Assembly (NCBI GenBank): GCA_902796295.1
Contig: CADBOL010000212.1
Location: 1 to 17,394 of the forward strand
Direction of reading: 5' to 3'
Length of the DNA: 17,394 nucleotides
Source of the DNA: Oscillospiraceae bacterium
Lineage (GTDB): Bacteria > Bacillota > Clostridia > Oscillospirales > Acutalibacteraceae
Part shown: piece after piece, positions 3,838-11,886 of the stretch
Layout: each line of letters starts with the position of its first letter
Position numbering within the stretch: the stretch's first letter is position 1
Notes under the pieces: model-generated
What the model was told of the DNA's origin: nothing
The model's database searches: none
The model's input: the letters and a program-made list of their open reading frames with translations, nothing else
Position numbers and translations under genes: made by a program

Positions 3838-4491
3838 ATGACACATACAGAAAGAATGAAAGCGGGTATGATTTATGACCCGGGAGCAGATGAAATAATG
3901 AGCGTTCAAATTCCGTATCAGGTGAAACTCAGGGAATTCAACGCTCTCTCCCAGACCGATTACGCCGGCAAGGAAAAATATATGAAAGAGGTCTTTGCCG
4001 AGTGCGGCGAAAACTGCTATATTGAGCTTCCGTTCTACGCTAACTGGGGCGGCCGTCATGTCCATTTCGGCAGCAATATCTATGCGAATTTCGGCCTCAC
4101 GCTGGTGGACGACGGTGAGATATTCGTCGGAGACCGCGTTCTCTTCGGCCCTCATGTTACAGTCGCAACAGCGAATCATCCGGTCAACCCGGAAATCCGC
4201 TCAAAATCTTATCAGTACAATAAAGACGTGCATATCGGCAGAAACGTCTGGATAGGCGCAAACACCGTAATCGTCCCCGGAGTCACCATAGGGGAAAACT
4301 GCGTGATAGGCGCCGGAAGTGTTGTGACAAAGGATATTCCTCCAAACACCGTCGCCGTAGGAAACCCATGCAGAGTACTGCGGGAAATCGGTGACCGCGA
4401 TGATGAATTCTTTTATAAAGAAGAAATAATCGATGATGAAATGAAAGAAATGATAAAAGAAATCAGAAACGGTTCCGCCGGCACTATCTGA
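3838..4491 (+). CDS. Sugar O-acetyltransferase, maltose/galactoside acetyltransferase type (LacA/Maa family)
   Basis: A 217-residue acetyl-CoA-dependent acetyltransferase of the hexapeptide-repeat (left-handed beta-helix) superfamily, expected to form a cytoplasmic trimer that acetylates a sugar hydroxyl. The N-terminal maltose-acetyltransferase cap (MTHTERMKAGMIYDP) is followed by hexapeptide turns from about residue 75 to 175, such as VHIGRNVWIGANTVIVPGV. His114 in TANHP matches the catalytic histidine of this family. The start at 3838 follows AAGGTG by 5 nt; an in-frame ATG at 3823 lies within the predicted leader and has no ribosome binding site. It is a single-gene unit with its own promoter. 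Its last 8 bases overlap the 3' end of the thiamine diphosphokinase gene on the other strand, with no terminator between. The physiological acceptor is unknown; these enzymes are often read as detoxifying non-metabolised sugars. Confidence 0.92.
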   Translation: MTHTERMKAGMIYDPGADEIMSVQIPYQVKLREFNALSQTDYAGKEKYMKEVFAECGENCYIELPFYANWGGRHVHFGSNIYANFGLTLVDDGEIFVGDRVLFGPHVTVATANHPVNPEIRSKSYQYNKDVHIGRNVWIGANTVIVPGVTIGENCVIGAGSVVTKDIPPNTVAVGNPCRVLREIGDRDDEFFYKEEIIDDEMKEMIKEIRNGSAGTI

Positions 4492-6134: not shown

Positions 6135-6159
6135 AAAAACCCGCCTCTGGCGAGACGGG
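6135..6159 (-). terminator. Intrinsic terminator after the zinc-finger protein gene
   Basis: On the minus strand, an 8-bp stem with one G-U pair (6159-6152 with 6147-6140), a 4-nt loop and five T residues (6139-6135). It lies directly next to the left inverted-repeat copy and just before the AlkD-like gene. Confidence 0.85.
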
Positions 6160-6189
6160 ATTCTATCAACTCTGCTTAAGTGATAACAC
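6160..6189 (-). repeat. Left copy of a 30-nt inverted repeat flanking the zinc-finger gene
   Basis: On the minus strand this reads GTGTTATCACTTAAGCAG and on through GATAGAAT. It matches the copy at 7207-7236 (plus strand) at 27 of 30 positions, in opposite orientation. Similarity stops abruptly on the outer side. Read on the minus strand, the last bases give an extended -10-like box, TGATAGAAT. Confidence 0.85.
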
Positions 6190-6197
6190 TCCAATAC

Positions 6198-6248
6198 GCG
6201 TGATCACGCTCCGGCGTGTCGGGAAAGGCCGGCCGGGCCGGCACTTTC
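6198..6248. other. Palindromes in the 3' untranslated region of the zinc-finger gene
   Basis: Two strong dyads lie between the stop codon at 6257 and the left inverted repeat. One is a perfect 12-bp palindrome, GCGTGATCACGC (6198-6209). The other is a GC-rich hairpin at 6223-6248, where GAAAG/CTTTC and GCCGGC/GCCGGC arms pair around a 3-nt loop with a single bulged base. Neither is followed by a T-run, so they are not simple terminators; they could stabilise the mRNA 3' end or bind protein. Confidence 0.6.
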
Positions 6249-6256
6249 ATAAAGAC

Positions 6257-7060
6257 TTACGCCTTTTTCTTGGAGCAAACATAAGCTGCTGCAGCCGCTG
6301 CGGAGATAATGGCAAATACTGCCATACCCGCTGATGCGGAACCGGTATCTACAGGAGCTTCTGCATTAGTGGTTTCTTCTATAGCTGTCTCTCTGTTGTT
6401 AGCATAGAGATCCTTGATTTTTTCTTTGATGGTGCTCATAAAGCCGTTGAAGTTAAGTAAATCGGCTGCGGGAAGGTTAAGCTTTGCGATTGCCGCGTCG
6501 AGTCTCTCGGCAGCGCCTGCAACCTCAGCTTCACCTGCAGCACCTGCGCCGTTCATAACTACTTCAATAACTCTGCTATAGAGATCCCAAAAGAGATCAT
6601 TGAGGGTTCCAAGGAAGCCCGATGCCTGGATGTAGTTAAAGAACTTATCCATGATTTCGGGAAGCTTGAGACCTATATACTTTGTCCAATAATGGTCACC
6701 TGTATTGTTGTGTGTGGCAAGGTGCTCATTGTAAGCTTCTTTGTTTCTGAAACTTGCGCCGCATGTAGCGCAGACATATTCTTTATCGTTTTTGTGGTTG
6801 TTGAGATCGGCAACATAAGCATCGGGATTCTCGTATTTTCTGCCGCATTCCTGGCATACAAAGTATCCGTTGGGGTCCCTGTGGTTATCAAGACAATAGT
6901 TATAGTCTGTGATACTTGTGTAAACCTTTCCGCAAACCGGGCAGGTATAAGCTGTGGGAGCATCACTGCCTGACGATTTGGCGGTTTCCGCTGCAAATGC
7001 CATAGTACCGATCGAGAATGTGAGAATGAATGCTAAGATTACTGCAATTAATTTCTTCAT
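6257..7060 (-). CDS. Secreted, C-terminally anchored protein with three C2H2-like zinc-finger modules
   Basis: I do not recognise this as a named family. The 267-residue product has a signal peptide (1-23, ending AFA). Three zinc-finger-like modules follow: finger 1 with C40, C43, C56, H60; finger 2 with C69, C72, D85, H89 (first His replaced); finger 3 with C97, C100, H113, H117 and canonical x2-x12-x3 spacing. A helical region (about 128-225) includes an Ala/Gly-rich stretch. The end is a sorting-signal-like tail: PVDTG (236-240), a hydrophobic segment (about 245-260) and SKKKA. It is probably held at the cell surface by sortase or as a membrane anchor, so DNA binding is unlikely; zinc, metal or protein binding is possible. 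The ATG at 7060 has AAGGG 10 nt upstream; an in-frame ATG at 7087 has no such site. It lies within inverted repeats, with a 24-bp palindrome in its leader. Confidence 0.85.
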   Translation of the reverse strand: MKKLIAVILAFILTFSIGTMAFAAETAKSSGSDAPTAYTCPVCGKVYTSITDYNYCLDNHRDPNGYFVCQECGRKYENPDAYVADLNNHKNDKEYVCATCGASFRNKEAYNEHLATHNNTGDHYWTKYIGLKLPEIMDKFFNYIQASGFLGTLNDLFWDLYSRVIEVVMNGAGAAGEAEVAGAAERLDAAIAKLNLPAADLLNFNGFMSTIKEKIKDLYANNRETAIEETTNAEAPVDTGSASAGMAVFAIISAAAAAAYVCSKKKA

Positions 7061-7096
7061 AGTTACAATTCCCTTCAGTATTTCCATTTTGTAGGG

Positions 7097-7120
7097 TTTT
7101 TAGATATCGATATCTAAAAA
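7097..7120. promoter_or_regulatory. Perfect 24-bp palindrome, possible operator in the zinc-finger gene leader
   Basis: The left half TTTTTAGATATC is followed without a gap by its exact reverse complement. The centre (between 7108 and 7109) is about 48 nt before the ATG at 7060. It has the size and symmetry of an operator for a dimeric repressor, or it could act as an AU-rich hairpin in the leader. No regulator gene adjoins it. Confidence 0.55.
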
Positions 7121-7206
7121 GAAGTTCGTTCCTGCCAGCTAAACAGGACGTGTGAGCAATTTTTCACAATACATGGCCATATATTATGATTAGTTAGCTT
7201 TTTGAT

Positions 7207-7236
7207 GTGTTATCACTTAAGCAAAGCCGATAGAAT
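7207..7236 (+). repeat. Right copy of the 30-nt inverted repeat
   Basis: It reads GTGTTATCACTTAAGCAA and on through GATAGAAT, and pairs with the copy at 6160-6189 in opposite orientation, differing at three positions. The two outer edges span 1077 bp. The flanking bases outside the copies (ACGGG on the left, AAAAT on the right) show no target-site duplication. Confidence 0.85.
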
Positions 7237-7445
7237 AAAATAGCCGTTTACTGTGAACATCCAGAGCCTTTCCGATCACCTCACTTTTCTCTTGTTCATA
7301 AACAGTACATATTGTGTATGCAACTACATAATGATACATCATATAGTACGCCTTATTCTAATACATCCAAATGAAAAAATCAAGCTTTTTTTGAAATTTT
7401 TTTACAAATTATTACATTTTTTTAATTTTTTCCCCGAAAAACCGC

Positions 7446-7811
7446 CTAAAAAGTAATTTTCAGCCCGGATTTAATCAGTTTTTCATAAAAATCGTAGTCT
7501 ATGGGACCGAAGCAAATCAAATCACGGGAACCCGGATTTACGGTGTAAAAAACATCGCATTTTCCTCTTCCCTCACCGATTTCTATACGTCCGGGTCTGA
7601 TTTCGCCGATTGATTCGGACAATCTCGCACTGTCTCTGCCCACGGCTACCGGAAGGATGTATTCCCTGTCACTGTACAGTATTACCGAAGGCTCTTCAAA
7701 AAGAGCAGCCAGACAAGAAACGGTATCCGTCACCTGTTCATCTTCGCAGAGCCTCAGGATAATCCGGCGCCTGCCGTTGTTTTCATATGAAAAATCACCT
7801 GTCAGTTTCAT
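7446..7811 (-). CDS. Hypothetical protein of 121 residues
   Basis: I do not recognise this protein. It is soluble, with no signal peptide or membrane segment, and looks rich in beta-strands (for example RRRIILRLC, PSVILYSDREYILPVAV, GRIEIGEG, DVFYTVNPG, LICFGPIDYDFYEKL). Composition and codon use resemble its neighbours, and a strong consensus promoter stands 37 nt or so upstream, so I think it is a real gene. The start at 7811 has GGGGA 10 nt upstream, a modest ribosome binding site. It is monocistronic, convergent with nothing, and divergent from the TetR operon across a 333-nt gap. No function is proposed. Confidence 0.7.
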   Translation of the reverse strand: MKLTGDFSYENNGRRRIILRLCEDEQVTDTVSCLAALFEEPSVILYSDREYILPVAVGRDSARLSESIGEIRPGRIEIGEGRGKCDVFYTVNPGSRDLICFGPIDYDFYEKLIKSGLKITF

Positions 7812-10617: not shown

Positions 10618-11886
10618 ATGAAAAAGTCATTCAAATCAGCCCTGTGCACCATACTGAGCATAATCATGCTCTGCACGGTTATTCTGCCTACGGTCAATGC
10701 GCTTTATGACGACCCGATGAGCGGCAGATTTGAAAACGGGGGCACAGCATCAAAAAACAGCACTCAGGAAGAGATTGTCTATGTTCACGACTCGAAATTC
10801 AGCACCGGCTACACAAGAGCCGAAGTTGTCGATGTCTCATCACATAACGGCGATATCAACTGGTCATCCGTCGCGGCATCAGGAATAAAATACGCTATGG
10901 TCCGCGCCGGTTACAGAGGATACGGCTCTGACGGCGCTCTCAATACCGACAGCAAATTCCGCGCAAATGTCAGCGGAGCAATTGCCGCCGGTCTCGATGT
11001 AGGCGTATACTTCTATACCCAGGCTACAAGCAACGCCGAGGCAATCGAAGAGGCGGATTATGTAATCGGACTCATCTCGGGATTCGACCTCAAGCTACCG
11101 GTGGCGTATGACTGTGAGTTCGCCGAGAGCGGCGGAAACTATACAGGCAGATTCTATAACGCGAGGCTGACATCATATCAGATAACCTCCATGTGCAACG
11201 CATTCTGCGACCGCGTTGTATCCGCAGGCTACAGCGGTATGGTTTACGCAAATCCGTATATGTTTGCAAATAAAATCAATGCCGCTTCTCTTCAGTATCC
11301 GGTCTGGCTCGCGTCTTTCTCAGACAGCGCGAAATATGACGGCGACTACACCATGTGGCAGTATTCAAGCAAAGAGACCGTGCCCGGCATCGACGGCAAT
11401 GTTGATAAAAGCTTTTATTATATCAAGGACGGCACTGCTCCCGAAAGATTCAGAGTGCACACGTCAAAGCTCAATGTCTATCTCGGAGAAACCGCGCAGA
11501 TGTCCGCTTTCTTTGATTCCGCGGAGTTTCTCAATGCGGGATGCAGGGTCGGCGGCGTAACCTGGGCATCATCAAATGAAGAAGTGCTCAAAGTTGACTC
11601 CTACGGCAATGTGACGACAGTCGCTCTCGGTCAGGCCTCGGTAACCGCTACACTCACCGTTTCGGTTCCCGATTCACGGGCATCCGGCGGATACACCGAT
11701 TACATCCAGCAAAAAACAATTCCGATTACGGTTTCCGAAAAGCCCCCCGAGCCGGATCCGATAAGCTCTTTGCTCCCGTCCGGCGGCGGAGGCGACTATA
11801 TAACGATGATTATGAATCTGCTCTCGATGTTCATCAAATTCATCGCGAGGATTATCCCGATGCTCACAGGCGGACTTGCACAGTAA
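10618..11886 (+). CDS. Secreted GH25 muramidase (lysozyme) with Big_2 domain
   Basis: A 422-residue exported peptidoglycan hydrolase. Residues 1-28 are a signal peptide. The GH25 beta/alpha-barrel (about 68-270) shows VVDVSSHNGDINW with Asp72, the catalytic YDCE (Asp165, Glu167), WLASF (230-234) and MWQYSS...VPGIDGNVDKS at its end; these enzymes cleave the MurNAc-GlcNAc beta-1,4 bond. A bacterial Ig-like Big_2 domain (about 278-372; VTWASSNEEVLKVDSYGNVTT) probably mediates surface or wall contact. After a Pro/Gly-rich linker the protein ends in a hydrophobic, amphipathic segment (about 394-418; MIMNLLSMFIKFIARIIPML), which may attach to the membrane. Start: CGGAGG lies 6 nt before the ATG. 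It is monocistronic, with its terminator at 11964-12013. Role in wall turnover or in lysis of competitors cannot be separated here. Confidence 0.93.
   Translation: MKKSFKSALCTILSIIMLCTVILPTVNALYDDPMSGRFENGGTASKNSTQEEIVYVHDSKFSTGYTRAEVVDVSSHNGDINWSSVAASGIKYAMVRAGYRGYGSDGALNTDSKFRANVSGAIAAGLDVGVYFYTQATSNAEAIEEADYVIGLISGFDLKLPVAYDCEFAESGGNYTGRFYNARLTSYQITSMCNAFCDRVVSAGYSGMVYANPYMFANKINAASLQYPVWLASFSDSAKYDGDYTMWQYSSKETVPGIDGNVDKSFYYIKDGTAPERFRVHTSKLNVYLGETAQMSAFFDSAEFLNAGCRVGGVTWASSNEEVLKVDSYGNVTTVALGQASVTATLTVSVPDSRASGGYTDYIQQKTIPITVSEKPPEPDPISSLLPSGGGGDYITMIMNLLSMFIKFIARIIPMLTGGLAQ

Follow-up and report, generated by a model that had tools for sequence, protein, structure and literature searches.

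The window analysed here is a stretch of 17,394 nt from an Oscillospiraceae bacterium (contig CADBOL010000212.1), and its minus strand carries a gene for a protein of 267 amino acids (6257..7060, from the ORF listing and translation; ATG at 7060, N-terminus MKKLIAVILAFILTFSIGTMAFA) within an open frame spanning 6257..7087. All parts of the gene named below lie on this strand. From its N-terminus the protein consists of a signal peptide, three fingers of C2H2-like type, a four-helix bundle (predicted), the motif PVDTG, a hydrophobic stretch and KKKA. The signal peptide, placed by alignment and by eye, comprises residues 1–23 (6992..7060), of which F22 and A23 are invariant in 39 aligned proteins. 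The predicted bundle, from alignment and structure prediction, occupies residues 131–223 (6392..6670); relatives that lack fingers have the C-terminal part of this bundle as well. It is followed by the sorting-signal-like PVDTG (residues 236–240, 6341..6355; alignment and tail listing) and by the hydrophobic stretch 246–262 with the lysines 264–266 (6263..6325; by eye and alignment). A sequence-only reading of this DNA had described three modules of C2H2 spacing, carried by a protein that has both a signal peptide and a tail resembling an anchor, which we confirm, and this order of parts is kept in homologues. Between the window and locus L024 the finger gene has a dN of 0.05 and a dS of 0.55. 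The gene is adjoined by an ORF of 121 residues (window 7446-7811, minus strand), which also lies beside it in L024 with 74% identity. Further along, an ORF of 422 residues with a hydrophobic C-terminus (10618-11886, plus strand) appears to resemble a secreted GH25-type lysozyme.

The three fingers differ in their ligands. Finger 1 (residues 40–60, 6881..6943; Pfam, finger profile and alignment) has Cys40-Cys43-Cys56-His60, finger 2 (residues 69–89, 6794..6856; finger profile and alignment) has Cys69-Cys72-Asp85-His89, and finger 3 (residues 97–117, 6710..6772; Pfam and finger profile) has the canonical Cys97-Cys100-His113-His117, so that the grading of the modules had been read exactly. The proposed check against Pfam came out in favor of true fingers, with a match to zf-C2H2 (PF00096) at E 1.6e-10 and 41.2 bits against a cut-off of 25.2, and a match to zf-C2H2_4 at E 1.2e-08. 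The Cys/His pattern was checked in close homologues, and no loss of it was found. In 35 aligned homologues the third ligand is C in 17, H in 16 and another residue in 2 for finger 1; C in 18, D in 6 and a gap in 11 for finger 2; and H in 31 and C in 4 for finger 3, in which both Cys of the first pair are invariant (35/35). As almost every residue at these positions is Cys, His or Asp, metal binding by the fingers looks to be under selection, judging from the alignment. The fourth ligand is H in 28 of the 35 for finger 1, in 27 for finger 2 (other 2, gap 6) and in 27 for finger 3 (C 4, other 4), and in some cases the departures may be shifts by one residue (H-x4-H). In 85 non-redundant proteins (of 107) we surveyed 122 CxxC windows, and 98 of these have H, C or D followed by H or C at ligand positions 3 and 4 (HH 38, CH 27, HC 26 and DH 7). 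By eye, the loop is longer in about 14 of the remaining 24, and in 8 the third ligand is present but the fourth is missing; since the fingers of the BspA-type proteins described below also seem to lack the fourth ligand, only some copies, and not all, can be four-ligand sites.

The predicted fold agrees with the assignment. An AlphaFold2 model of the ectodomain contains three ββα units, with block pLDDT values of 81–91 for fingers 1 and 2 and of 63–73 for finger 3, the least confident of the three, which reached 53–58 in another prediction. Among PDB sequences the fingers of PRDM9 match over three stretches (E 1.9e-23). All 50 of the Foldseek matches listed against the PDB are C2H2 proteins; these structural matches are weak, with 3 at E≤0.001 in one search and, in another, none at that level among the matches listed (2e-3 or worse, query TM 0.13–0.29). 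The units are predicted to have the fold that had been expected of them.

The next question is how widely the protein occurs. Among 7996 scored candidates, namely those sharing most words with the query, 38 proteins were relatives at E 0.001; the finger region is present by rule in 30 of them, and the alignment shows no CxxC finger in the remaining 8. The whole protein matches 35 of 60 relative genomes, its own included, all of one genus, and many of these matches are confined to the C-terminal part. PF00096 has matches at E≤0.001 in 20 of 37 genus genomes (own included) and in none of 23 genomes of other genera. A profile built from 33 fingers has matches at E≤0.01 in 36 of 41 genus genomes, again with its own, two of which (G006 and G024) have only matches near E 0.01; the window's own genome is 79% complete. 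Outside the genus, a search that scored at most 22 candidates per genome gave matches at E≤0.001 in 4 of 391 other genomes of the class, all weak (21–24 bits). One of these (G418) is a full finger in a frame of 131 residues in which no signal peptide was seen by eye, two (G302 and G275) have an incomplete ligand set, and the fourth (G417) does not match the finger pattern. Among named genome records, 40 loci are labelled Clostridia, Clostridiaceae, Ruminococcaceae or Oscillospiraceae, and the host animals named in the record titles are ruminants or horse. Apart from these weak matches, the finger is confined to one herbivore-gut genus among the genomes searched; homologues of the same order in gut Clostridia, which had been anticipated, do exist, but their range is narrower than that. 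We also noted, in another genus of the class, an exported-looking frame of 1163 residues (L146, in G302) with many repeats WTCSVCQKMFSD that has CxxC without the finger histidines; L121, likewise from outside the genus, is an exported-looking protein in which CxxC is repeated and the finger histidines are missing.

Within the genus we find at least four kinds of secreted finger protein. The first is that of the window, with fingers, bundle and TG tail. In the second, two to four fingers precede another C-terminal region (L133, L134 and L139), which may be Ig-like and which, in L133 and L139, has no match in Pfam. The third kind is built of BspA leucine-rich, Big_3 and Flg_new repeats and carries a single finger close to the C-terminus, as in L087, where Pfam identifies LRR_5, Big_3 and Flg_new; the frames of this and of L142–L145 have 950 to 1239 residues, one finger near the C-terminus and a common end like FFQKIISFFKNLF, and several of their fingers are among those that seem to lack the fourth ligand. 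The fourth is a secreted protein of about four fingers with no tail (L085, L086 and L116). A signal peptide was found, by a home-made rule and by eye, in 53 of 53 assessable finger ORFs of the genus, which came from part of the finger-profile matches. The set started from 62 listed ORFs, of which 6 from other genera were dropped; from the 56 left, L054 (whose frame starts inside the matched stretch) and L036 and L104 (at a contig edge) were omitted. Of the 53, 49 pass the rule and L130 was accepted by eye; the other three are L106, L117 and L135 after extension (as L142, L145 and L143), and rule matches inside the cut-off ORFs L104, L106, L117 and L135 were excluded from the count. A further arrangement was seen in L136 (G063:C31), where two finger genes stand in tandem with frames of 142 and 242 residues.

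The tail invites comparison with sortase substrates. By eye, the signal peptide, the C-terminal hydrophobic stretch and the positive tail are all present as in such substrates, and the anchor tail of the earlier description stands as a TG motif followed by the hydrophobic stretch and KKK, but the LPXTG pentapeptide is absent from the window protein, which has PVDTG instead. Among 79 tails collected by a pattern requiring TGS, all with a hydrophobic stretch, 61 have P[VAS][DE]TGS and 46 have AP[VA][DE]TGS; [VI]PATG or [VI]PTG occurs in 6, and 71 have a Cys that follows [YF]V where the hydrophobic stretch ends. The same tail ends larger frames, for example one of 543 residues with Flg_new repeats in the window's own genome. 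That genome has 3 matches to the sortase family (PF04203), which was found in 34 of 36 genomes searched, in 33 of them over the cut-off; in G009, which is 76% complete and carries the finger gene, no sortase was matched. Membrane anchoring without sortase is possible. A pilus-like locus was recognized by eye elsewhere in the window's own genome (L082, C257, 1-11192), with two sortase-family genes, a signal-peptidase-like gene, a surface-type protein of 1872 residues and proteins with (I/V)PTG tails.

What, then, is the finger for? We lean towards the view that the C2H2 finger serves as a zinc-folded, disulfide-independent extracellular module of a surface protein, most likely for contacts with proteins or surfaces and not with DNA, a reading to which we give moderate confidence. 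The finger protein would be exported by its signal peptide, and its tail, of sortase type or a membrane tail, would probably hold it in the envelope; the four-helix bundle is a putative stalk. The three N-terminal fingers would fold around zinc outside the cell, and a small, stable module of this kind would suit a setting in which cysteines likely stay reduced. Such contacts would be those of an adhesin or scaffold.

An alternative is that the fingers form a zinc store or chaperone on the surface, buffering or capturing zinc for uptake, with stability not the point. Each protein has three potential sites, and the C/H/D variation of the ligands could tune their affinity. The recurrence of the aromatic and helix core positions (F/Y, YN) alongside the ligands fits a fold rather than a loose chelator, however, and no zinc transporter was recognized by eye among the window ORFs, so that we consider this alternative unlikely.

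The role of cysteine bears both on the preferred reading of a zinc-folded module and on a second alternative, in which the Cys pairs are redox or disulfide sites and the likeness to a finger is a relic. CxxC is also a redox motif, and, in the part of the source available, some Clostridia are described as having working DsbA and VKOR homologues (PMC12453122). Against this, neither PF13462 (DsbA-like) nor PF02600 (DsbB) has a match in 23 genus genomes (0/23 for each), in a search that covered these two profiles; in 14 controls, which include E. coli and B. subtilis, the two profiles have matches in 9 and 6. In 30 relatives only 18 Cys are counted among 4457 residues once the finger regions, the first 25 residues and the last 12 are set aside, and exported proteins of obligate anaerobes tend to exclude cysteines, according to the text seen of the same source (PMC12453122). 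Moreover, ligand positions 3 and 4 mostly stay C, H or D together with CxxC. A redox role is on these grounds improbable, and we infer that zinc may take the place of disulfides here as the stabilizer of small exported domains.

Extracellular DNA had been named as one possible ligand, which the charge of the fingers disfavors. The finger region of the window protein has a net charge of -3 and a pI of 5.7, and positions -1/2/3/6 of the helix are S/T/D/Y, N/D/A/A and N/E/A/E in fingers 1, 2 and 3, with no basic residue at the recognition positions of any of the three. That the fingers bind extracellular nucleic acid, be it biofilm DNA, DNA in uptake or phage, is very improbable: in its favor are the fold class, shared with fingers that bind DNA, and the best-matching PDB proteins, which bind DNA too, but in the database relatives the finger regions are acidic without exception (30 of 30, pI below 6.5), and this together with the lack of basic recognition residues makes DNA an unlikely ligand, as far as it can be judged from sequence.

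The finger gene of the window is also flanked by an inverted repeat. The arms, identified by repeat search and from the arms of orthologues, lie in the 5′ UTR (7197..7236) and in the 3′ UTR (6160..6199), the latter just before a terminator-like GC hairpin with a run of T after it (6135..6159, by eye). As arms of the long-range helix discussed below, they are placed at 7202..7236 and 6160..6194. Upstream of the 5′ arm is a promoter-like TTGATT-17-TAGAAT (7355..7383), a consensus match only. Between the 5′ arm and the gene are a hairpin TCCTG-TTTAGCTGG-CAGGA (7130..7148; alignment and by eye), whose stem letters change in relatives, and, from the orthologue alignment, a 24-nt leader palindrome TTTTTAGATATCGATATCTAAAAA (7097..7120), whose core GATATCGATATC is kept in 11 of 12 aligned orthologues (not in L016). 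The 3′ UTR holds a palindrome GCGTGATCACGC (6198..6209) that is identical in 12 of 12.

The inverted repeat is best read, from its pattern of substitution, as a helix between the 5′ and 3′ UTRs of the finger-gene mRNA, which is predicted to pair over a core of 26 bp. It is conserved in orthologues of about 50–90% protein identity. In the covariation test, which used 10 distinct arm pairs of the 12 (L026 and L028 were dropped, being identical to L025), standard pairs fill 95.3% of 300 cells and 9 pairs are changed on both sides, a number that 0 of 500 shuffles reach and that compares with at most 3 in slid versions; the number of further pair types discriminates less well, as 40 of 500 shuffles reach it. 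In the 26-bp core of 12 orthologues, 312 cells comprise 274 Watson-Crick pairs, 32 G.U, 5 A.C and 1 other; the excess of G.U over A.C is a strand bias that favors RNA, on few independent positions in related sequences (G.U at 5 pair positions, A.C at 3). Minimum free energy folding of all 12 transcripts forms 23–26 of the 26 core pairs. We suggest by analogy with the icaR and hbs mRNAs that the helix could protect the mRNA from RNase or control translation; a role as a stalk for RNase III processing is equally possible.

The two arms of about 30 nt bracket the gene, and could in principle be the terminal inverted repeats of a mobile cassette or of an invertible, phase-variable segment. The orientation of the gene relative to mgmt in L025, L026 and L028 is indeed opposite to that in the window and L024. 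A promoter-like site outside the 5′ arm is nevertheless the best-scoring one in 5 of 12 orthologues and is seen by eye in 6 more, being absent to the eye in L032 only, and since it lies on the upstream side of the gene, a flip would have moved the whole unit. The arm pair was found in 13 of 45 genus genomes, with a single pair in each, always around a finger gene of the window family; a scan of viral_contigs gave no relative, and the prevalence of G.U among the non-Watson-Crick cells also speaks against a DNA repeat of this kind. We therefore think a mobile or invertible element rather improbable, and keep to the UTR helix.

This helix is limited to one clade of finger genes. A stem score of 50 or more was obtained for 10 of 305 genes in longer loci, of which 9 are the finger gene and 1 is a simple repeat, and the CCHC-type relatives (L012, L014, L017 and L020) have no stem above background. 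In G063:C31 (L136) one arm pair encloses both tandem finger genes, one arm having a G.U-compatible change. Single arms occur beside the finger gene in G452 and at a contig edge in G035, and four more single arm matches with one mismatch were found in loci where no finger ORF was seen. The high stem score of L134 was rejected, since one hairpin, present in two copies, makes up its arms. Another family of secreted finger proteins, that of the four-finger protein (L107, L115 and L116), has unrelated inverted-repeat arms of 34 nt and long conserved UTRs, with no Rfam match near the cut-off in these flanks; by eye, its arms sit between further complementary stretches. Separately, L032 contains a SAM riboswitch over the Rfam cut-off (4384-4478).

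Taken further, these observations lead us to a tentative proposal, quite possible but short of probable: in one genus the C2H2 finger may be a standard extracellular domain, shuffled among anchored proteins with a helical bundle, giant LRR proteins of BspA type and other secreted proteins, with the mRNA ends locked by a long conserved helix in one clade and in the L107/L115/L116 family. If true, the finger domain would be a zinc-based counterpart of the disulfide-rich domains of animals, and would show how anaerobes with little use of disulfides stabilize small exported domains. It would also offer a natural library of metal-site variants (CCHH, CCCH, CCDH and CCHC), apparently without the constraint of DNA binding, and the UTR helix would provide a strong example from nature of 5′–3′ communication in bacterial mRNAs, few of which are described in the text available to us.

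C2H2 fingers are usually regarded as domains that bind nucleic acids inside the cell. The window protein is like the classical C2H2 family (PF00096) in its spacing C-x2-C-x12-[HCD]-x3-H, its predicted ββα units, its Pfam score over the cut-off and, by eye, the five-residue linker between fingers 2 and 3. It differs in its signal peptide, its acidity, its CCCH and CCDH ligand sets, the common Tyr-Asn at helix positions 4-5 and the recognition positions devoid of basic residues; the basic surface for recognizing nucleic acids, which is not required of all C2H2 members, is not found on the window fingers. This would be a known fold in a new use, and one larger than first stated, being genus-wide rather than that of a lone protein. 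Ros/MucR likewise has a bacterial C2H2-type finger, and an Asp as zinc ligand has a precedent, as second ligand, in Mesorhizobium Ml1-3, as described in the text seen (PMC9779718). There, the Ros/MucR proteins are presented as regulators in which the finger belongs to a DNA-binding domain of larger fold (PMC9779718), whereas the window protein has a signal peptide and small fingers in tandem. Ros/MucR is not among the 25 of 41 Pfam matches listed, nor is any Ros structure among the 50 Foldseek matches listed in either search. With LPXTG sortase substrates the protein shares the signal peptide, a short TG motif, the hydrophobic stretch, the positive tail and sortase-family matches in the genome, and departs from them in the motif itself, given that P[VAS][DE]TGS prevails among the tails collected. 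The mRNA, finally, resembles those of icaR in S. aureus (as far as described in the source available) and hbs in B. subtilis in having complementary 5′ and 3′ UTRs on one molecule. The hbs pairing is of 14 nt and is described, in the text seen, as not conserved in close relatives (PMC7821165), whereas the window gene has a 26-bp core with covariation over species; and the icaR pairing lies over the ribosome site, whereas the 5′ arm of the finger gene is located about 140–175 nt upstream of the start codon.
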